Assembly (NCBI GenBank): GCA_012840135.1 | Contig: DUMA01000005.1 | Location: 62,001-126,000 of the forward strand | DNA: 64,000 nucleotides | DNA from: Thermoanaerobacterales bacterium | GTDB lineage: Bacteria > Bacillota > Thermosediminibacteria > Thermosediminibacterales > Tepidanaerobacteraceae | Direction: 5' to 3' | Shown: piece after piece, positions 47,667 through 63,245 of the stretch | Numbering within the stretch: the stretch's first letter is position 1 | Layout: every line of letters starts with the position of its first letter | Notes under the pieces: generated by a model | The model's database searches: none | What the model was told of the DNA's origin: nothing | The model's input: only the letters and a program-made list of their open reading frames with translations | Position numbers and translations under genes: made by a program

Positions 47667-50078
47667 ATGTCGGGCAGTGTCAGCAAGGCAGGAATTAAGA
47701 TAAAAGGTATGACCTGTGCCTCCTGTGCCGCCAGGATAGAAAAGGCCATTTCCAAAATGCCTGGGGTTCAGCAGGTCAATGTGAATTTTGCTGCCGAAAA
47801 GGCCAATATAACATATGATTCAGGCAAGCTTACAGTGGGTGACTTTATCCAGAAGATAAAAGATGTAGGATATGATGTAATCCTGGATAAAGTGGAACTG
47901 GGACTAAAGAACATGAATTGTGCCTCATGCGCGGCAAAAATAGAAAAAGCCCTCGCCAAAGCACCGGGAGTTTATAAGGCCTCGGTAAATTTTGCCACGG
48001 AGACAGCTACGGTGGAGTACAACAGCAGTGAGATAGATATTAAGAATCTAATAAATATTGTCAGGAAAACAGGCTATGATGCTTTTGAAAAAACCGAGAT
48101 GAATGTAGATCGGGAAAAACAAGAGAGAGAGCGGGAAATAAGGTCTTTAGGAAGACTTGTGGTAATATCAACAATACTTACAATCCCGCTGGTTATATCT
48201 ATGGTGCTGAGGATTTTAGATAAACCGGGCGGCATTCTTGACAATCCATGGTTTCAGATAGCTCTTTCAGCACCTGTCCAGTTCATCATCGGTTACAGGT
48301 ATTACAGGGGCGCCTACCATGCTTTAAGAGGCGGTGGTGCCAATATGGACGTTTTGATTGCCATGGGCACCACAGCGGCCTTCTTCTACAGCCTGTATAA
48401 TGTATTTACGTTACCTATGGAAGTAATACACAATTATTTGTACTTTGAAGCTTCTGCGGTGATCATTACCCTCATCACCCTTGGCAAATATCTGGAGGCG
48501 GTGGCCAAGGGCAGGACTTCCGAGGCCATCAAAAAGCTCATGGGCCTACAAGCCAAGACCGCCCGGGTAATAAGGAACAACCAGGAAATGGATATTCCGG
48601 TGGAAGAAGTGGAAGTGGGAGACATAGTGGTGGTAAGGCCCGGGGAGAAAATACCGGTTGACGGCAAAATAATAGAAGGTTATTCATCGGTGGATGAGTC
48701 CATGCTAACCGGCGAGAGCATACCGGTGGAGAAAAAGGTGGGAGACGAAGTGGTGGGTGCCACGTTGAACAAGACCGGCACCTTCAAGTTCGAGGCCACC
48801 AAAGTCGGAAAGGATACGGCACTAGCCCAGATAATAAAGATGGTGGAAGATGCCCAGGGTTCCAAGGCTCCCATACAGAAGCTGGCAGATCAGATTTCAG
48901 GAATATTCGTTCCGATAGTAATAGTTATCGCTGCCATTTCTTTCGGGGTATGGTATTTTATCTTTGGCAACTTCACTGCAGGCCTTATCAATGCAGTTTC
49001 GGTTCTTGTCATAGCTTGCCCCTGCGCCCTGGGCCTTGCTACCCCTACTTCAGTCATGGTAGGTACCGGCAAGGGTGCTGAAAATGGTGTCCTGATAAAA
49101 GGCGGTGAGCACCTGGAGCGTGCTCATAAAATAAAGGCCATCGTCCTGGATAAAACGGGAACCATTACCAAAGGAAAGCCCGAAGTTACCGACATTGTAT
49201 CCCTGGGAGATATGAAACCCGAAGAGATATTGATATTTGCGGCATCATCCGAGAAAGGTTCCGAACACCCCCTGGGGGAGGCTATTGTCAATAAAGCCAA
49301 AGATGCAAATATGAAACTTTTCGATCCGGAAAATTTCGAAGCCATTCCGGGGCACGGCATATACTCAAAAATCCAGGGCAGAGAAATACATTTTGGCAAC
49401 CGGCGGCTTATGGCAAAACAAAATCTTCCAACAGAGGGCATTGAAAACCTGCTTACAAAATTAGAAGACGAAGGAAAGACCGCCATGATCATGGCCATCG
49501 ACGGCAAAATAGAAGGCGTGGTGGCGGTGGCGGATACCGTGAAGGACCATTCTAAAGAGGCCATAGATGAACTTAAGAAACTGGGTATTGAAGTGTGGAT
49601 GATCACCGGCGACAATAAGCGCACGGCCAATGCCATTGCAAGGCAGGTAGGAATTGATCACGTGCTGGCAGAAGTGCTGCCGGAAAATAAGGCCCAGGAA
49701 GTGGAAAAACTCAAGAAGCAGGGCAAGCTTACCGCCATGGTGGGAGACGGCATCAACGACGCTCCGGCTCTTGCTGCCGCCGATGTAGGCATAGCCATAG
49801 GCACAGGCACTGATGTGGCCATGGAGGCCGCCGATATTACCCTTATGAGTGGGGACCTTAGAGGAATAGTCACTGCCATCAAGCTAAGCCGTGCCACCAT
49901 GAGAAACATCAAGCAGAACCTCTTCTGGGCATTTATATACAATACTGTGGGGATACCCTTTGCGGCCCTGGGATTTTTAAGCCCCGCCATCGCAGGAGGA
50001 GCCATGGCCTTCAGCTCGGTATCGGTGGTAACCAATGCTTTAAGGCTCAGAAAGTTTAAGCCTGAAACTGCAATGTAG
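47667..50078 (+). CDS. copA: Cu(I)-exporting P1B-type ATPase
   Basis: 803 residues. Two N-terminal heavy-metal-binding domains ([14 protein letters not shown] near 14, [14 protein letters not shown] near 82), eight predicted membrane helices, the ion-path motif CPCALGL near 450, phosphorylation site DKTGTIT near 494, HP in GSEHPLGEA and ATP-binding [10 protein letters not shown]. The late-helix signatures YNTVG and MAFSSVSVV are those of Cu(I)/Ag(I) pumps. CsoR operator 4 and GGAGG precede it. No copZ chaperone is adjacent. Confidence 0.96.
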
Positions 50079-50387: not shown

Positions 50388-50783
50388 TTAAAAAATGTGC
50401 TTACTTGCCAGATATTCCCTCACGAGCATGAGAGTTTCTCCAAACCTTTGGAAGTGCACCACTTCCCGTTCACGGAGGAAAGATAGCGTAGCTATCACCC
50501 CGGCGTCGTCAGTTAAATTTATCAGGTGTTCGTAGGCGGTGCGAGCCTTCTGTTCTGCGGCCAGATCTTCATGCAGGTCGGCTATAGGGTCACCGGTGGC
50601 CTGGATATATGCGGCGGTCCATGGGACACCGGCAGCATCATGGGGATACAGAGCATGATCGTGCTGGGCATAGTGGTCGCCCATACCGGCCCGGCGGAGC
50701 TGTTCTGGTGTTGCTCCATCGGTAAGTTTATATATCAATGTTCCTATAATTTCCCAGTGGGCCATCTCTTCGGTGCCAATATG
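50388..50783 (-). pseudogene. cotJC: CotJC/manganese-catalase gene, 3' part only (interrupted by element)
   Basis: Encodes the last 130 or so residues of a CotJC-like manganese catalase: IGTEEMAHWEIIGTLIYKL, GVPWTAAYIQATGDPIADLHEDL, AEQKARTAYEHLI, REREVVHFQRFGE. Glu and His ligands of the di-Mn site are present. The frame runs from its stop back to IGTEE and meets a TAA at 50784-50786; the first 60 or so residues of the usual 190 are absent. The recombinase gene ends 20 bp beyond that point. CotJC is a spore-coat protein, so this is probably a functional gene split by the element, to be rejoined on excision, rather than a dead one. Confidence 0.85.
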
Positions 50784-50802
50784 TTATCAATGATAAAATG
50801 GA
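50770..50802. other. Left attachment junction of the element
   Basis: Catalase homology ends at the Ile codon (50778-50780). The recombinase stop is at 50803. The crossover core must lie in or next to this 33-bp stretch, probably overlapping the bases that encode GTEEM. Confidence 0.65.
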
Positions 50803-52356
50803 CTATAAATTTGGCAATTTGGGGTATATTTTTAGTTTGAAATCCTCTACTTTCCCACTCCACCTTCCTCCTTTTTCTTTTATGTAGACTACTTTTTCAA
50901 GGACCTCTTTCAGAAGCTCATTTTTTTCTTTAGGAGTGTTAAGGCTCCAATAAGAATTTATCGTATTTTCCAATTTAGGGATGATATTTTTTTTGCTTTC
51001 CTCTCTGGCAGATATTTTTTCTAATTTATTTTCTAATTCTTTTTTATCTCTTTTTGCAGCAGTTATTTTTTCGTTTAATATTTTTGATCGCTTCAGGAAT
51101 ACTTCGATAGAATAGATTCCTTGTTCCAGCAAGTCATGCAAATTATTTAATTGCTTGTCTAAAGTTTTTAAGTCATTATCAATGTTTTCTATAGACTGTT
51201 TTATTATATCAGCTTCTAAGTTACCTTCCAGCGTTTCCTGCTGCTGTATCTTTACTTTATACTTTTTGAGCCAATCCTCTAAGACGCCCAGTAATTTTTT
51301 TTCTACAAGGTATAGCGGGGAGCTGATATTTTTGCAGGTGGGTCCGGTGCATAAAAGAGTATCCGGATAACCGTTTTTATAGGGTTTTCTATTCATTTTT
51401 CGGCCGCACATACCGCAGACAATCAATCCGGCCAGAGGATTTTCAACTTTATATCTGGTCGGAACGGGTAAGGACGGGTTTTCGGCCAGATATTTTTGCG
51501 CCAGGTTAAATGTTTCCTCATCTATGATCGGATCATGCAATCCGTCAACCACAACCGCATTTTTGGCCCGGGGCCTTTCTTTTATCATTTCGCCATTTTT
51601 TATTTTTTTTATTTGCGGCCGCGCTTTCCACCTGATTTTCCCGATGTAGACAGGATTGGATAAAATTCCTCGAATGGTGGAGGTGGTCCAGTCTCCGCCC
51701 TTGCGGGTTGGTATTTTCATTTCGTTTAATCTATTCATGATTAAAGATACACCGATTCTATTGGTACCCGTATACCACTTATAAATTAATCGAACCACGT
51801 TTGCTTCGTCAGGGTTTACTTCAAGCGTATATCCGGTATCGTTATCAAGTTTTTTTCGTGTATAGCCATAAGGAGGTATATTACCGACATATTTTCCTTC
51901 TTTTGCGGACAGAGTTCTGCCGCGTTGCAGACGTCTGTTTATGGTTTTGTATTCCCTCCTGGACATAAACAGGCCGAATTCAAAGTATTCCTCGTCAAAT
52001 TCGTTTGAAGGGTCATATATTTTCATAGGTGTAATGATTTTTGTGTTTGAGTATTTGAAAGTTTGTGCCACTATTCCCTGATCTATGGTATCTCCACGCG
52101 CCAGACGCTCTACTTCGACAACAAGAACACCTTCCCACATTCCTCGCTCTACTTCGCTTAGAAGTTCCTGCATAACCGGTCTTGCGGCGATAGTTTCTCC
52201 CGATACGATTTCTTTATATATTTTGGTTATATTTATTTTTAACTTTTTTGCCAGCTCAAACAGGATTTTCTCATGCCTGGCCAGGGTTTCACCTTCCCCG
52301 CGTGCTTCGGCTTCAATGTCGGCTCTGGATTTTCGAAGATACATGCAGTATGCCAA
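50803..52356 (-). CDS. Large serine recombinase (SpoIVCA/SprA type)
   Basis: About 517 residues from the TTG at 52356, 7 bp after GGAAAGGATG; an ATG at 52383 is the alternative. N-terminal resolvase domain with catalytic Ser in YLRKSRADIE and the Arg-rich VVEVERLARGD; recombinase domain (PPYGYTRKKL, STIRGILSNPVYIGKIRW); zinc ribbon (CGMCGRKMNR...CTGPTCKN) and a C-terminal coiled coil (NIDNDLKTLDKQLNNLHDLL). Size and layout match the recombinases that excise elements from sporulation genes. It sits at the very end of the element and reads towards the split catalase gene. Confidence 0.93.
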   Translation of the reverse strand: MAYCMYLRKSRADIEAEARGEGETLARHEKILFELAKKLKINITKIYKEIVSGETIAARPVMQELLSEVERGMWEGVLVVEVERLARGDTIDQGIVAQTFKYSNTKIITPMKIYDPSNEFDEEYFEFGLFMSRREYKTINRRLQRGRTLSAKEGKYVGNIPPYGYTRKKLDNDTGYTLEVNPDEANVVRLIYKWYTGTNRIGVSLIMNRLNEMKIPTRKGGDWTTSTIRGILSNPVYIGKIRWKARPQIKKIKNGEMIKERPRAKNAVVVDGLHDPIIDEETFNLAQKYLAENPSLPVPTRYKVENPLAGLIVCGMCGRKMNRKPYKNGYPDTLLCTGPTCKNISSPLYLVEKKLLGVLEDWLKKYKVKIQQQETLEGNLEADIIKQSIENIDNDLKTLDKQLNNLHDLLEQGIYSIEVFLKRSKILNEKITAAKRDKKELENKLEKISAREESKKNIIPKLENTINSYWSLNTPKEKNELLKEVLEKVVYIKEKGGRWSGKVEDFKLKIYPKLPNL

Positions 52357-52441
52357 TGTTAAACATCCTTTCCACGCTGTCATGGAACATCTTCTTAATT
52401 AGAACAGGTCCGCTATTTCATTTAAAGATATTTTTGCTTTT

Positions 52442-52660
52442 TCATAAGGTATAAACCTTGGTGGTTTTCCCGCACTTCCAGCAAATTCTGTCCCACGCAT
52501 ATATGTTAATACCGTATGTTTTTATGTATTCGAGAATCAGTTCATGGAATTTAAGCGTTGATTTACAGCGAGGAAAATTGGAGCACCCTGCGAAATTACC
52601 GTATTTTCCGGAATGAAGAATGTAATGTCCGTCACATAACCTGCACTTTACTTTTTTCAT
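52442..52660 (-). CDS. Small topoisomerase-type zinc-finger protein
   Basis: 72 residues. A four-Cys zinc finger of the type IA topoisomerase kind (CRLCDGHYILHSGKYGNFAG, then CSNFPRCKST) and a second CxxC near the C-terminus (CWKCGKTTKVY). It may bind single-stranded DNA. It lies between the recombinase and the repressor region; a recombination directionality factor is one possibility, but nothing proves it. Confidence 0.7.
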   Translation of the reverse strand: MKKVKCRLCDGHYILHSGKYGNFAGCSNFPRCKSTLKFHELILEYIKTYGINIYAWDRICWKCGKTTKVYTL

Positions 52661-52764: not shown

Positions 52765-53112
52765 TCACCCAACTCTAACATTATATCGGCTGCAGCTTTC
52801 AGCCACTTTATCTGCTTCGATTTCGAACGGTTGATGATGCATGTCTAGTCCGACGATATATCCTGCTTTTGGCATATCTTTGATTATGTGCTTTATTTCG
52901 TGTATAAAAACTTTGCATTGGGTTTCGTAGTTTATGTTGCCGTTAAGTGCCAGGTGGTAGTAGCCTTTCCTGCTCACATATGTAAAGCCATACACGGTGG
53001 GCGGGAGGTTTGCAATGGTTACCCGTATGCCGAATGAATTCATAACTTCATAAAATGGCATGGTGCCATCCGTTAATGCCCTGAACAGGGGTTCATCTAA
53101 AAGCTCGAACAT
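52765..53112 (-). CDS. immA: ImmA/IrrE-type metallopeptidase
   Basis: 115 residues. The zinc motif HEIKHIIKD (HExxH) near residue 71 and the downstream acidic region EIEADKVAE give the metallopeptidase site. ImmA-type proteases cut the Xre repressor of mobile elements after DNA damage and so start excision. The Xre repressor gene lies about 360 bp upstream on the same strand, with one small gene between. Confidence 0.8.
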   Translation of the reverse strand: MFELLDEPLFRALTDGTMPFYEVMNSFGIRVTIANLPPTVYGFTYVSRKGYYHLALNGNINYETQCKVFIHEIKHIIKDMPKAGYIVGLDMHHQPFEIEADKVAESCSRYNVRVG

Positions 53113-53467: not shown

Positions 53468-53878
53468 TTATAAATCATCATTTGCGGCCTCTTCGTCCTC
53501 AATGGCCTTTATTACCCGAATTATTTTTTTAACGTCATTCGGCGTCATTTCTCGAATCTGTTTGAAAAGAAGCTTTAGGTCCTCGCGCTCCTTCAACTCA
53601 TTCCAGAACTGCGCCAGCTCCGGATCATCGGAGACGGAGTCGGTGATTTTATCGGCAGTGGAGGGGGTGTCGAGCTGATCGTCTTTGTCCGACAGAAAAT
53701 AATTAACCGGAACCCCTAGAGCTTTTGCAATAGCTTCGAGGGTTGATAAAGAAGGATTACTTCGTCCTGATTCTATATCAGCAATAAATGAATGCGAAAT
53801 GTGCGCTAATTTCCCTAATTCTCTTAGTGAAAGGTTTTTTTCTGTTCTGATTTTCTTCAACTTTTCGCCTAACAACAT
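53468..53878 (-). CDS. Xre-family repressor with C-terminal regulatory tail
   Basis: 136 residues from the ATG at 53878, 9 bp after GGAGG. HTH at residues 1-60 (KNLSLRELGKLAHISHSFIA, DIESGRSNPS), then a charged tail of about 70 residues (ELKEREDLKLLFKQIREM). It is the probable main repressor of the element and the target of the ImmA-like protease. Its HTH is closely similar to that of the divergent small repressor, so both should read similar operators. Confidence 0.88.
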   Translation of the reverse strand: MLLGEKLKKIRTEKNLSLRELGKLAHISHSFIADIESGRSNPSLSTLEAIAKALGVPVNYFLSDKDDQLDTPSTADKITDSVSDDPELAQFWNELKEREDLKLLFKQIREMTPNDVKKIIRVIKAIEDEEAANDDL

Positions 53879-54103
53879 TATATATCCTCCGTTCGATAAT
53901 ACCATACAAGATTATTATATAATTTGGCATTGCAAATGTATATATAATTAATGTATGTAAATAACGAACAAAATACTGAGATATAATAAGATAATAGCTT
54001 TTAATTTGGTATAAATAGTTTAAAACGGTCGTGAATAACGAACTTGGCATTTTACAAACGGTCGTTATCAACATACAATAAAAATGAAGGGAGGCTAAAA
54101 AAC
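53879..54103. promoter_or_regulatory. Divergent repressor control region with operator repeats
   Basis: 225 bp between the two Xre genes. AAACGGTCGT occurs at 54023 and 54056 (33 bp apart, three helical turns). AATAACGAAC occurs at 53960 and 54034 (74 bp, seven turns), and its inverted relative ATTATCGAAC is at 53891-53900 on the minus strand close to the repressor start. The layout resembles a lysogeny switch. Confidence 0.6.
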
Positions 54104-54367
54104 GTGATAGGAACCACGCTTAGAAGACTAAGAAAACAAAAAGGGTTTACTTTGCGAAAATTTGCAAAGCTTTCGGGACTATCGCATAGTTTTATAAGCG
54201 ATATAGAAAATGGTCGTTGTAATCCATCGATTGAAAGTTTACAAAAGATAGCAAATGCTTTAGATGTAAAGCCTCATATTTTTTTGACTGAATCGGTCGT
54301 TGGAAACGACCTCGATAAAAAACCAACCAGCAAACTGCATGATTTATATATTCGACGGTTGGATTAA
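54104..54367 (+). CDS. Small Xre-family regulator, divergent
   Basis: 87 residues from the GTG at 54104 after GGGAGG; an earlier in-frame start at 54044 has no site and would reach into the operators. A single HTH (KGFTLRKFAKLSGLSHSFIS, DIENGRCNPS) and a short tail. It is the Cro-like partner of the repressor transcribed the other way. Confidence 0.83.
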   Translation: MIGTTLRRLRKQKGFTLRKFAKLSGLSHSFISDIENGRCNPSIESLQKIANALDVKPHIFLTESVVGNDLDKKPTSKLHDLYIRRLD

Positions 54368-54429
54368 TTCTCCTTCGCTTTAACAGGACACAATCGTCTT
54401 TGCATATTATATCCCAGGGGGTGGACGTA

Positions 54430-54600
54430 ATGGCTTTGGTTAAGGAATACAAGCTCGGGAATACAAAAATAGAAATTTATGATGATGCATATAAGGATAA
54501 AACCCAGGAGGATATAGACCGGATACTTAAACGAATAGCAAATATTATTTCAAAATCAGTATATTCCGCCGGATATGAAGAAAAAACAGGAGGCGCATAA
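54430..54600 (+). CDS. Small hypothetical protein of the element
   Basis: 56 residues from the ATG at 54430, after GGGGGTGG. Acidic with a helix (EDIDRILKRIANIISKSV). No recognised family. First of a run of short early genes downstream of the Cro-like regulator. Confidence 0.65.
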   Translation: MALVKEYKLGNTKIEIYDDAYKDKTQEDIDRILKRIANIISKSVYSAGYEEKTGGA

Positions 54601-56015: not shown

Positions 56016-56342
56016 GTGATTAATAACGTAACGCTTGTTGGCAGGCTTACCAAGGAGCCGGAATTAAAGGAGGCCAACAATGCTTCGGTTTGTTCTTTCA
56101 CTATTGCCGTGGATAGGAACTATAAAAACAGCGCAGGGGAAAGAGAAACTGATTTTATCCCTATCACAGCCTGGAGAAAGCTGGCCGAAATCTGTGCGAA
56201 GAATTTAAGTAAGGGAAGGATGGTGGGAATCACAGGCAGGATTCAAACGCGGTCATGGGATACCGAAGATGGTAAAAGGGCATGGGCAATGGAAGTGGTG
56301 GCGGAGAACGTGGTTTTCCTGGATAAAAAGAAAGATGACTAG
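56016..56342 (+). CDS. ssb: Single-stranded DNA-binding protein
   Basis: 108 residues from a GTG after AAAGGAGAGG. A single OB fold with the SSB motifs NNVTLVGRLTKEPEL, FTIAVDRNYKN and AWRKLAEICAKNLSKG. Shorter than chromosomal SSB (about 150-180) and without the Gly/Pro-rich tail and the acidic DDDIPF-type tip; it ends KKKDD. It points to single-stranded DNA being made by the element. The origin-like structure begins at its last codon. Confidence 0.9.
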   Translation: MINNVTLVGRLTKEPELKEANNASVCSFTIAVDRNYKNSAGERETDFIPITAWRKLAEICAKNLSKGRMVGITGRIQTRSWDTEDGKRAWAMEVVAENVVFLDKKKDD

Positions 56343-57816: not shown

Positions 57817-58521
57817 GTGACCGATACTATAATAACGACCTGGTGGAGTGCCGCCGGCGGTGTAGGCAAAACCACTCTTGCTGTAGCTCATGCCCAGGAA
57901 CTTGCAAAGCAGCATAAGGATGACGTTGCCCTGATGGATTTTAGTGAGGCCAGGCCAGATATATACAAACTTCTAGACCAGGCTTTTTTAGATCCGAATA
58001 AAGTTTTAAATGCTATCGAAAATGGTGCGATAGCAAATATAAAAGATTTTATGTCTAAAAAAGGCAATATGTATGTTTTTACAGGGATCCCTTTAGAACA
58101 ATTTGAGATGTTCCAGGAAAAGCATTTTTCGGCCATTATCCGGTCTGCTAAAGAAAATTTCAAACACATTATCATCGACACAAATGCCGGAATATTTTTC
58201 TCGGCCACAGCGGCAGCCCTTAAAGCCAGCGATAAGATAAACGTTGTTTTAAGACCGGATATCCTCTGTTTGGAAGATACGGCGACGATGATCAATTTTC
58301 TGTCCGAACGGTGGGGTATAGACATAAACAGATTCAGATTTAATCTCAACCGAATCTTGCCTGGGAATCTGGATCTTGAAACTGCCGAAAGAGTCCTTGG
58401 AAGGGAGATTATAGAAATATCCTTAAAACTGGGGAAAATACAAATGCCTTTTAAGAAGCCTAAAAAGGGCTTTTTTAATTTCCTGGAAAGGAGTATACAC
58501 AATGCTTATAAATCCGTTTGA
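57817..58521 (+). CDS. cpaE: CpaE/TadZ-like ParA-family ATPase
   Basis: 234 residues from a GTG after AAGAGGTGA. Walker A AAGGVGKTTLAVAHA near residue 14, without the signature Lys of standard ParA/MinD motifs, as often in CpaE/TadZ; further VALMDFSEARPDIY and HIIIDTNAG (Walker B). TadZ/CpaE positions the Tad pilus machine. It overlaps the ATPase gene by 20 bp. The receiver-like N-domain of many CpaE proteins is missing. Confidence 0.82.
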   Translation: MTDTIITTWWSAAGGVGKTTLAVAHAQELAKQHKDDVALMDFSEARPDIYKLLDQAFLDPNKVLNAIENGAIANIKDFMSKKGNMYVFTGIPLEQFEMFQEKHFSAIIRSAKENFKHIIIDTNAGIFFSATAAALKASDKINVVLRPDILCLEDTATMINFLSERWGIDINRFRFNLNRILPGNLDLETAERVLGREIIEISLKLGKIQMPFKKPKKGFFNFLERSIHNAYKSV

Positions 58522-59623
58522 GGTCCGTCCTGATAACGAAGCAGAACCGGAAAAGCCCCCAAAAGACTTAGCTGGCGAAATTGTAGACGAGCTGGTCATG
58601 AATAAATCCGAACTAATTACCGCCGTCCAGGAAGAAAAGGCATCAAACGACACTCTCATACAAGAGATTAGAAATATCATCCGGGATAAAAAAATATGGG
58701 TTGAGGATTTAACATATTTTGCCAAAAGAGTAGCAGATATCCTTTTCGGTTACGGCATACTTCAGCCGTATATCGATGACCCTGATATATCCGACATACT
58801 GGTGAATTCCAAAAACGTGGTATTCATAAAAAAATTCGGTACAAAGCTTAGGGTGCCGGTGGACTTCGGAAGTGAAGAAAATCTTCTGAAATACTGCTAT
58901 AAAGTTGCGGCCATGTGTGGAGGCAAGCTGGATGAAAACTCTAACGCTGAAGCGGTTTTAACGGATAGAAAACGTAATATGAGGATAGTTATATCTCTGA
59001 AGCCTGTAAATGTTTTGTCGCCGTCCATCTGCATCCGTAAGCCCACTACCGGTTACACCCTGGCCGAGCTGGTGGACAAAGGTATGATTACCCAGAGCGA
59101 AAAAACATTCTTTGAAACTGCTGTAAAGGAACGGAAAACAATAGTCATTGCCGGTAAGGGAGGCAGTGGGAAAACTACGCTGTTGGGTGCTTTGATTGAT
59201 GAAATGCCGGAATATGAAAGGGGGCTTTTAATCCAGGAGACTTTCGAGATTAAACCGAGGCATCCTGATGTGGTCTGTAAACTGGTAAAGCTGTCGGATA
59301 ATCCCGAAGTGAAGGATTATACTCTCTTTGAACTGACAAAGATAGGGCTGCTGATGTCCCTGGACCGTATTTTCATCGGTGAGATTAAGGACAGGGAAGC
59401 CTTTGACTTTTTCAATGCGGTATATACCGGCCATACCGGGTCCATGGCCACGGTTCATGCCAATTCTGCCGGAGAGGTGGTAAACAGACTTGTGCAGCTG
59501 ATGAAAAGGTGCGGGACGGATATTCCTTTTGATGACCTGAGAGAAATGCTTTATTCGTCCCTGGACCTTGTTGTGTTTATGAAGGACTATAAAGTCGTCG
59601 AGATTGAAGAGGTGAGGGAGTGA
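58502..59623 (+). CDS. tadA: TadA/CpaF-family pilus assembly ATPase
   Basis: 373 residues. Secretion ATPase of the CpaF type: N-terminal DPDISDILVNSKNVVFIKK, Walker A GKGGSGKTTLLGAL near residue 218, Walker B SLDRIFIGEIKDREAFDF and the His-rich TGHTGSMATVHANS. It powers assembly of Flp-type pili at the inner face of the membrane. GGAAAGGAG precedes the ATG. Confidence 0.93.
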   Translation: MLINPFEVRPDNEAEPEKPPKDLAGEIVDELVMNKSELITAVQEEKASNDTLIQEIRNIIRDKKIWVEDLTYFAKRVADILFGYGILQPYIDDPDISDILVNSKNVVFIKKFGTKLRVPVDFGSEENLLKYCYKVAAMCGGKLDENSNAEAVLTDRKRNMRIVISLKPVNVLSPSICIRKPTTGYTLAELVDKGMITQSEKTFFETAVKERKTIVIAGKGGSGKTTLLGALIDEMPEYERGLLIQETFEIKPRHPDVVCKLVKLSDNPEVKDYTLFELTKIGLLMSLDRIFIGEIKDREAFDFFNAVYTGHTGSMATVHANSAGEVVNRLVQLMKRCGTDIPFDDLREMLYSSLDLVVFMKDYKVVEIEEVRE

Positions 59624-60547: not shown

Positions 60548-61369
60548 ATTCTTTATCCCTTCATCCTTTTGACTGTATTGCTGGCAGCAGTTTTTTATAT
60601 CGTGCTTGACGAATACCGGATATATTCATTCAGAAAAAGGATTTATTCCCTGAGTTTGAAAGATAGCATCACGGAAGCTGTCAATAGAACTGTTAAAAAG
60701 AATACTCTTGAGAAGATAAGAGAAAAACTCCGAAGAGCCGGAAATCCTTTAAGCCTTACACCGGAAACATACATTTTGGCCAGAACGGGGCTTTTTATTT
60801 TTGCCATTTTTTATATCTTTCTCGTCGGCATGAAAGGCGCTCAGGCTGTTCTTTTTGCCATTGTTGCCTTCTTTGCCCTGGATATTTACATTTACTTTGA
60901 GCAGAAAGACAGGGAAGAGACTTTCAGAAACGAGATGCCTGAGATCGTGGATATGTTTGAGCTTGGAGCTGCAGCCGACGTGCCGATGGAGGATGTATTC
61001 CTTATAGCCGCTGAATCTGCGGAGTCTAAGGAGGTGAAAAAGGAGCTGGCGAAACTCTCCGCGGAATACTTCATCACCAGAGACAAGGAGGTGTGTCTTA
61101 AGAGATTCTGCAAAAACATAGGGCTGCCGGAGGTGAACGTGCTTTCCATGGCCCTGCTGCAGGGGGAAAAAACCGGGAGGACCCTGGATATACTTTCTTC
61201 TCTTTCTTCATCCCTGTTTAATACCGCCACGGCAAAGATAGTGCGGCAGGACAAAATGACTGACTATAAAGTCCTGGCGGCAATTTTTGTCCTGATGGCG
61301 TCAGTGGTGATGCTTTATATGTATCCGTATTTTACCAATCTGGAAGGAGGATTGAAAAGCGTATTTTAA
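60548..61369 (+). CDS. tadC: TadC-like pilus assembly membrane protein
   Basis: About 273 residues. Type II secretion F-domain family; helices near 1-20, 75-115 and the C-terminus (VLAAIFVLMASVVMLYMYPYF). Cytoplasmic part with FELGAAADVPMEDVFLIAAE and MALLQGEKTGRTLDILSSL. A TAA lies just upstream at 60545, and the first codon after GGAGGTGG is ATT at 60548; a TTG at 60569 is 26 bp from that site. I favour the ATT, a rare start. Confidence 0.78.
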   Translation: MLYPFILLTVLLAAVFYIVLDEYRIYSFRKRIYSLSLKDSITEAVNRTVKKNTLEKIREKLRRAGNPLSLTPETYILARTGLFIFAIFYIFLVGMKGAQAVLFAIVAFFALDIYIYFEQKDREETFRNEMPEIVDMFELGAAADVPMEDVFLIAAESAESKEVKKELAKLSAEYFITRDKEVCLKRFCKNIGLPEVNVLSMALLQGEKTGRTLDILSSLSSSLFNTATAKIVRQDKMTDYKVLAAIFVLMASVVMLYMYPYFTNLEGGLKSVF

Positions 61370-62588: not shown

Positions 62589-63245
62589 ATGCCTATTTAC
62601 AACAGAAGAAGGATCGTATTGTTGATTGTGAGTCTGATTCTGGCAGCCGGTATTACTTTTTTTGAGTATACATATTTCAGCAGTATGGCTAAGAAGGAAC
62701 AGACGGTTCGGGTCATCGTTGCAGGTTCAAATATCTCTGCCGGGTCCAGAATCGACGGTATGGGGAGCGTAAAAGACATACCCGCATCGGCGTATGTTAA
62801 AGACATGTTGAGGGCCGACCGGCCTGTTTCCGGTTTTGCAAAGGTGGATATTTCTAAGGGGTCATATATTCTCCGGAGTATGATTTCAGAATCAAAGGTC
62901 CCGGTAATAAAGGACGGCATGAGACGCGTCACCATCGGTGCAAATCTCGTATCTGCCCTGGCAGGGAGGATTAAAGCCGGGGATTATGTGGATGTGGGTT
63001 ATATCCCCGGGAAGGAGACGAAAGAAGGGAGCGGGCAGCCGGCGGTCATAGCGGAAAACGTCCAGATTTACAACATCGTAAACAATAAAGCTGGTGATAC
63101 TGATAAACCAAAAGATAACAAGGATAACCAATACGATACCGATTCCGTCATCCCGGCGGCGGTGACTCTGATAGTGACGCCGGAGCAGGCGGTGACGATC
63201 AAGGATATGGAAAGCAGGGGAAGTCTGTTTTTGCTGGGGTATTAA
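62589..63245 (+). CDS. cpaB: CpaB/RcpC-like SAF-domain protein
   Basis: 218 residues. One N-terminal membrane helix (IVLLIVSLILAAGITFFEY), then an SAF domain (RVIVAGSNISAGSRIDGMGS, PVSGFAKVDISKGSYILRSM) and an RcpC-like part (GRIKAGDYVDVGYIPG) with a polar insert (NNKAGDTDKPKDNKDN). CpaB/RcpC is an outer component of Tad systems; in Gram-positives it would lie in the wall zone. Confidence 0.8.
   Translation: MPIYNRRRIVLLIVSLILAAGITFFEYTYFSSMAKKEQTVRVIVAGSNISAGSRIDGMGSVKDIPASAYVKDMLRADRPVSGFAKVDISKGSYILRSMISESKVPVIKDGMRRVTIGANLVSALAGRIKAGDYVDVGYIPGKETKEGSGQPAVIAENVQIYNIVNNKAGDTDKPKDNKDNQYDTDSVIPAAVTLIVTPEQAVTIKDMESRGSLFLLGY

Follow-up and report, generated by a model that had tools for sequence, protein, structure and literature searches.

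A split cotJC gene beside a serine recombinase

The window (the whole stretch of 64,000 nucleotides analysed here) lies on contig C37 of a 3.18-Mb genome assembled in 56 contigs. It contains the 3′ two-thirds of cotJC, whose product we take to be the dimanganese catalase of the spore coat, placed between host DNA and a large serine recombinase gene:

47667 to 50078, forward strand: copper-type P-type ATPase of the host flank, which adjoins the intact cotJC in the sister genome G001
50388 to 50780, reverse strand: 3′ part of cotJC, residues 61–190 (IGTEEMAHWE..KHIF), PF05067; own start codon absent
50760 to 50793, reverse strand: attR, from the alignment of junctions of about 60 loci, compared with attL and the attB of G001
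50803 to 52353, reverse strand: large serine recombinase (PF00239, PF07508, PF13408), ending 22 bp short of the cotJC fragment

The cotJC piece matches positions 62–195 of PF05067 (Pfam, E = 1.1e-37), and its frame 5′ of IGTEE reads TAA-CAT-ATT-GGC. The original prediction had described a catalase frame homologous from IGTEEMAHWE onwards, closed upstream by a stop and followed at 20 bp by the end of a large serine recombinase gene. This description holds, with the stop placed two codons ahead of IGTEE and a measured gap of 22 bp between the IGTEE codon and the recombinase stop codon (50803–50805). The recombinase open frame covers 50803–52383 on the reverse strand, and its probable start is the TTG at 52353, indicated by a good ribosome-binding site and by the homologs. 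The protein comprises resolvase, recombinase and zinc-ribbon domains. Its predicted likeness to SprA is borne out, since SprA/YokA of SPbeta is its sole relative in PDB (phmmer, E = 3e-56, full length); the PDB matches include SprA/YokA fused to its partner YotN, also known as SprB, the recombination directionality factor (RDF) of SPbeta.

The missing part of the gene lies apart from the window, on contig C1 (C1:85912-86130), where a 72-codon open frame encodes residues 1–65 followed by LAPLCYQ and a stop. It directly follows cotJA-like and cotJB-like genes (named from sequence and order), so that both the PF05067 match and the cotJA–cotJB genes upstream mark the split gene as cotJC. An intact second cotJC is absent from this genome, in which the other PF05067 matches are weak ferritin-like stretches with 30% identity. 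In G001, which is a complete genome from within the genus, cotJC is uninterrupted and both flanks are joined around it at 95–98% DNA identity (97.5% to the C1 flank and 95.6% over 6.4 kb to the window flank).

When the halves are joined in silico at the shared GA of Glu65, they yield a 190-aa CotJC with no stop and 9 residues unlike G001. The 3′ half differs from the intact G001 gene by 24 synonymous and 6 non-synonymous codons, a count which includes the time before the insertion. Since the missing residues 1–65 are present in the same genome and the flanks are contiguous in the sister genome, the split is not due to chance: a sporulation gene lies in two halves around an inserted element, and both halves are retained. 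The original prediction that a recombinase element splits cotJC would have been refuted by the lack of a 5′ fragment or by a whole second copy with decay of this one; the fragment is there, the second copy is not, and alignment of the junctions with those of relatives gives an att core over about 60 loci and an empty site in G001, so that removal of the element restores the frame exactly.

In the window, attR consists of the element arm TTGATAACAT (50781–50790), then ATTGGCACCGAAGA and GATGGCC, with the proposed crossover dinucleotide GA at 50767–50768 in the codon of Glu65. In the alignment of about 60 loci, each 5′ piece retains ..GAYATWGGNACNGARGA, the 3′ piece starts at GA(A/G) of the same codon, and the element arms TTGATAAC and GTTATCAA make up an inverted repeat centred on this GA. 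The short core is common to both halves of cotJC, and precise excision restores the reading frame. Glu65 presumably belongs to the ExxH metal-ligand motif of the Mn catalase, and therefore neither half alone should be active.

Conjugation genes of the inserted element

The element lies to the right of both cotJC pieces and extends from the break to the contig end over 30.7 kb on C37 and 14.7 kb on C1, which makes at least 45 kb spread over two contigs with an unassembled middle. Its genes within the window include the following:

52765 to 53112, reverse strand: protein with an HEIKH motif, possibly a peptidase of the ImmA/IrrE-like kind (assigned from the motif; Pfam gave no match above cut-off)
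53468 to 53905, reverse strand: HTH repressor-like protein (PHROG transcriptional regulators, E = 2.5e-19)
54044 to 54367, forward strand: second HTH repressor-like protein, divergent (PHROG transcriptional regulators, E = 5.5e-16)
56016 to 56342, forward strand: single-strand binding protein (PF00436, E = 3e-32)
57817 to 58521, forward strand: Tad/Flp pilus ParA-like ATPase, TadZ-like (AAA_31)
58502 to 59623, forward strand: Tad pilus ATPase, TadA-like (T2SSE, E = 4e-26)
60569 to 61369, forward strand: Tad pilus membrane protein, T2SSF (PF00482, E = 1.1e-6)
62589 to 63245, forward strand: RcpC/CpaB pilus protein (PF16976, E = 1.9e-15)

Along with the Tad/Flp pilus genes and the single-strand binding protein, the C37 part encodes a prepilin peptidase, a D12 DNA methyltransferase and a ParM-type actin, while the C1 part encodes a VirD4/TraG coupling protein (PF02534, E = 2e-55), a TraG/VirB4-type ATPase (PF19044), TrbL_4 (E = 5e-30) and an M23 peptidase. 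The coupling protein, the VirB4-type ATPase and the site-specific integration are features of integrative and conjugative elements (ICEs), and “ICE” is the best name for this element, although no relaxase was found among the scanned proteins of an element with an unassembled middle. Capsid, tail and terminase genes were likewise absent from the scanned proteins (the same unassembled middle applies); a PHROG terminase match of the TraG-type ATPase was rejected as a phage gene because it reflects the shared P-loop. The element is conjugative and not recognisably a prophage, with no phage structural gene among the proteins scanned, and in this the comparison with prophage-like elements in the original prediction is corrected.

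Some other genes of the element deserve mention. A 1037-aa protein combining a calcineurin-like phosphoesterase with a STAND-type NTPase (L006:6089-9202) is possibly a defence gene, an 1838-aa PKD-repeat surface protein is encoded close to the Tad pilus genes (L008:6523-12039), and an MNT/HEPN-like pair (L008:1162-2080), which resembles the HepT/nucleotidyltransferase pair of the minimal element in L018 described below, apparently belongs to the window’s element, as judged from its sequence.

Recurrent splitting of cotJC among spore-formers

Among the 80 nearest relatives of the recombinase, obtained in a search of 84,980 species genomes, a cotJC piece is present at 60 loci, always broken at the same codon, and at 57 of the 80 it lies no more than 250 bp from the recombinase end. 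About half of the pieces beside the recombinase are 3′ and half are 5′, the two kinds being intermixed over a quick tree. Both halves occur in nine loci, e.g. L018; this locus contains a 3.3-kb minimal element in cotJC (L018:5148-8991) with the recombinase, an RDF-like gene and a HepT/nucleotidyltransferase pair. The cotJC target named in the original prediction is therefore retained, while its picture of a lone clostridial example is replaced by that of one member of a widespread element family using this site. In the complete, one-contig genome G287 the cotJC halves are 53.5 kb apart. The 3′ halves are in open frame up to the conserved C-terminal region in 30 of 33 cases; of the three others, two are interrupted by an additional insertion and the third (L081) has a frameshift.

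Of 398 genomes drawn from across the phylum, 241 have a CotJC or Mn catalase match; in at least 14 of the 241 both pieces are present, broken at residues 62–70, which is a lower bound because only low-scoring genomes were re-examined. Culturable species with a split cotJC include Alkaliphilus transvaalensis ATCC 700919, Sedimentibacter acidaminivorans DSM 24004 and Lachnotalea glycerini DSM 28816. The search for further relatives covered 22 genomes of the order and 17 of the class, the GTDB class being small. A second member of the bacterial family (G005) has cotJC split at the same codon beside a related recombinase tail. Its 5′ half is followed within a few kb by an RDF-like gene, tRNA-Gln/Glu and host-like, rnr-like genes (L109, L108), an arrangement suggesting that the element has been reduced or that the DNA between the halves was rearranged. 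An attP matching the cotJC site, in unjoined form, is located beside related integrases in at least two phage genomes, Paenibacillus phage phiIBB_Pl23 and one faecal phage. The open-access journal literature searched contains no description of cotJC or Mn catalase as the target of a recombinase or an intervening element, and the splitting of cotJC at the same codon in many spore-formers has apparently not been described before.

Codon 65 is not the only break point. cotJC is also split near residues 24–28, beside a distinct second family of serine recombinases (L042:1740-3301, L048:1663-7818, L089:550-2228, L079:3626-5184, L057:7648-9233), and in combination with the codon-65 element this split leaves cotJC with two or more cuts, its pieces still in order. 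A third split occurs near residue 136 (DMAAE/QKAR), in several cases with another serine recombinase nearby (L048; L069:7665-9569; L120–L124 in G203, G184 and G150; L117–L119 in G362), and up to three breaks are found in one gene. A different site pair is represented by L116 (G279:C5 897-10215), in which cotJC pieces 1–33, 24–57 and 53–190 have two serine recombinases between them. In L110/L111 (G007 C36:72373-91401), a whole cotJC is followed about 18 kb further on by a 3′-end fragment and then by the usual host flank; judging from this order, cotJC seems to have received a new 3′ end from an island.

Members of a sister clade of the recombinase interrupt genes for asparagine synthetase (asnB-like) at conserved ..SGE.ADE/IFGGYPW.. 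codons, on the 3′ side in L037, L051, L059, L064, L065 and L066 and on the 5′ side in L052 and L084; the recombinase family is thus not bound to coat genes. In some of these loci the small RDF-like genes of the asnB clade have CATANNNTA upstream. Clostridium sp. KNHs205 has the same asnB-type element in two forms, one integrated (L059) and one as an 11.65-kb contig whose attP is rejoined (L058) and which has the appearance of a free circle left by excision.

A candidate directionality factor and proposed excision in the mother cell

Two further features of the window bear on the control of the element:

54385 to 54411, forward strand: promoter-like motif AGGACA-N12-CATATTATA, preceding the gene of the candidate RDF
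54430 to 54600, forward strand: candidate RDF, 56 aa (MALVKEYKLGNTKIEIYDDAYKDKTQEDIDRILKRIANI..), from its linkage to the recombinase

The small protein belongs to a family of about 57 aa whose members accompany the recombinase at 57 of the 80 nearest loci and also occur at the second split cotJC mentioned above (G005) and in phage phiIBB_Pl23. Among 40 genomes, 7 of the 14 whose cotJC is split encode such a protein, against 0 of the 26 whose cotJC is unsplit (Fisher p about 2e-4), and in the split genomes that have it, it lies within or beside the element. The family has no Pfam or NCBIfam match, its PHROG matches are marginal and none is convincing, and a PDB search returned matches only to short helices or designed proteins; the AlphaFold model comprises a beta hairpin and a helix (mean pLDDT 73, pTM 0.46). 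On the strength of this association we propose that the small protein of about 57 aa is the RDF. A Zn-ribbon protein (52442–52660) was also considered for this role and was dropped in favour of the recombinase-linked family.

Strict sigma-E/sigma-K patterns are found in 10 of 60 upstream regions of the RDF genes against a shuffled mean of 2.3, and the GGACA-N12-CATA motif was spotted by eye among these matches. The motif NATAGGACA-N12-CATANNNTA (also GGACA-N12-CATANNNTA) recurs upstream of the small-protein genes: GGACA-N12-[CA]ATA is present in 17 of 58 such regions against 0.3% of 726 control ORFs, and AGGACA-N11..13-CATANNNTA has a single match in the 3.18-Mb genome, at 54385–54411 before the small-protein gene. 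We take CATANNNTA to be a −10 of the mother-cell sigma-E/sigma-K type; TAGGACAAAT may correspond to the SpoIIID box of B. subtilis. For C. difficile the SpoIIID box is reported as KRTAACARK (PMC5025042). The host genome has SpoIIID and an intact sigK. Several facts count against the reading given below: under a third of the small-protein family has the motif, the fuller motif has no match at other genes of its own genome, the sister clade of the recombinase targets asparagine synthetase, and the element lies on two contigs with no relaxase in the parts read.

Our best explanation, to which we assign a probability of about three in four, is that an ICE of at least 45 kb integrated into the Glu65 codon of cotJC by means of an SprA-like recombinase and that its RDF-driven excision in the mother cell rebuilds the gene. 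In vegetative cells and in the germ line (forespore) the element would stay integrated, because the recombinase alone is supposed only to integrate. The promoter of sigma-E/sigma-K type would turn on the small protein in the mother cell, where as an RDF it would switch the recombinase to excision and so rebuild cotJC while the coat is being made. The element would lose nothing, since the mother cell dies and the spore inherits the element intact. Programmed excision of this kind is likely in view of the candidate RDF, the mother-cell-type promoter motif and the precedents of SPbeta and the C. difficile skin element; the RDF function, the mother-cell timing and the function of the rebuilt catalase are inferred.

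A different account, which we regard as unlikely, treats the conserved ExxH codons as an attB in a dispensable gene, a “safe harbour” from which the element is excised for transfer with no link to sporulation. In C. difficile, no single cotJC-type gene is required for the coat to form (PMC11222575). The insertion site comprises the most conserved codons of cotJC, the sister clade uses conserved codons of asnB in the same way, and phages use the same cotJC site. However, a −10 of the mother-cell type in the promoter-like motif of the linked small protein is unexpected under pure transfer control, and the 3′ halves, which have no start of their own, stay open in nearly all loci.

It is far less probable that the insertion inactivated cotJC for good and left its halves as relics, as the absence of an excised form from the assembled sequence and the frameshifted 3′ half among the relatives might suggest: the halves are intact, the change in the 3′ half is of the purifying type (even if partly older than the insertion), the recombinase frame and att arms are intact, and the same pattern is found in many lineages. 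The location of the halves on different contigs (C1 and C37) might also point to an artefact of assembly or binning that fused unrelated sequences, a reading with a negligible chance of being right, since it is refuted by the single contigs carrying both halves (G287, G407, L018, L026, L010); moreover, G001 joins exactly these flanks.

Programmed excision of an ICE can be compared with several known systems. With SPbeta in spsM of B. subtilis (SprA/SprB) it would share a related recombinase, a small RDF gene, a sporulation gene rebuilt by excision and a mother-cell type promoter motif, located here before the candidate RDF gene, while the target gene and the core are different and conjugative genes replace the phage genes. 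The promoter of sprB is of the sigma-E/K type, and spsM is the integration site of a chimeric ICE equipped with the SPbeta unit (PMC6957869); the candidate RDF represents a previously unnamed family. The simplest reading of the window’s element is that of a natural ICE with an SPbeta-type recombinase/RDF unit aimed at cotJC. The skin element in sigK of C. difficile (CD1231/CD1234) is likewise clostridial and under mother-cell sigma control, and its RDF, CD1234, which depends on sigma-E and SpoIIID, alone sets when and where the recombinase excises (PMC5025042), similar to the timing switch proposed here for a small RDF. Its target is a sigma factor, whereas cotJC encodes a structural coat enzyme, and hence development would not stall.

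The gin element in gerE of Bacillus cereus ATCC10987 is also an intervening element without phage genes (PMC5595907), yet it is a 28.6-kb island with three recombinases, in contrast to the conjugation apparatus and the Bacillota-wide recombinase family found here. yin in yabG of Clostridium botulinum is another recent clostridial case in a coat-related gene (PMC10747680), but it is prophage-like, known from a single case and inserted in a different gene. The nearest hint of cotJC as a target comes from prophage phi027 of C. difficile R20291, which adjoins a gene for a putative Mn catalase resembling CotJC (PMC11222575); that gene is described as a neighbour of the prophage and not as one split and rebuilt. 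An explanation of the phi027 type was dropped because no C. difficile phage is among the recombinase relatives listed in the phage collection.

Programmed DNA rearrangement in sporulation is known for a handful of genes, mostly interrupted by prophage-like elements. We lean, with some reserve, towards the broader view that cotJC is a major unnoticed locus of such rearrangement, at which ICEs, phages and islands share the codon-65 recombinase/RDF/attB unit, two further recombinase families act near residues 24–28 and 136, and three to four pieces would be rejoined in the mother cell. If true, the window’s ICE would be the first natural case of a conjugative element whose excision belongs to cell differentiation. 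cotJC is a recurrent target for conjugative elements and phages across many spore-former lineages. The small switch protein is testable, and the new set of recombinase, att sites and candidate RDF is present in many culturable species. If the mother-cell timing holds, several kinds of mobile elements would have settled on the same developmental “safe harbour”, one that may cost host and element nothing because the excised copy is lost only in a dying cell.
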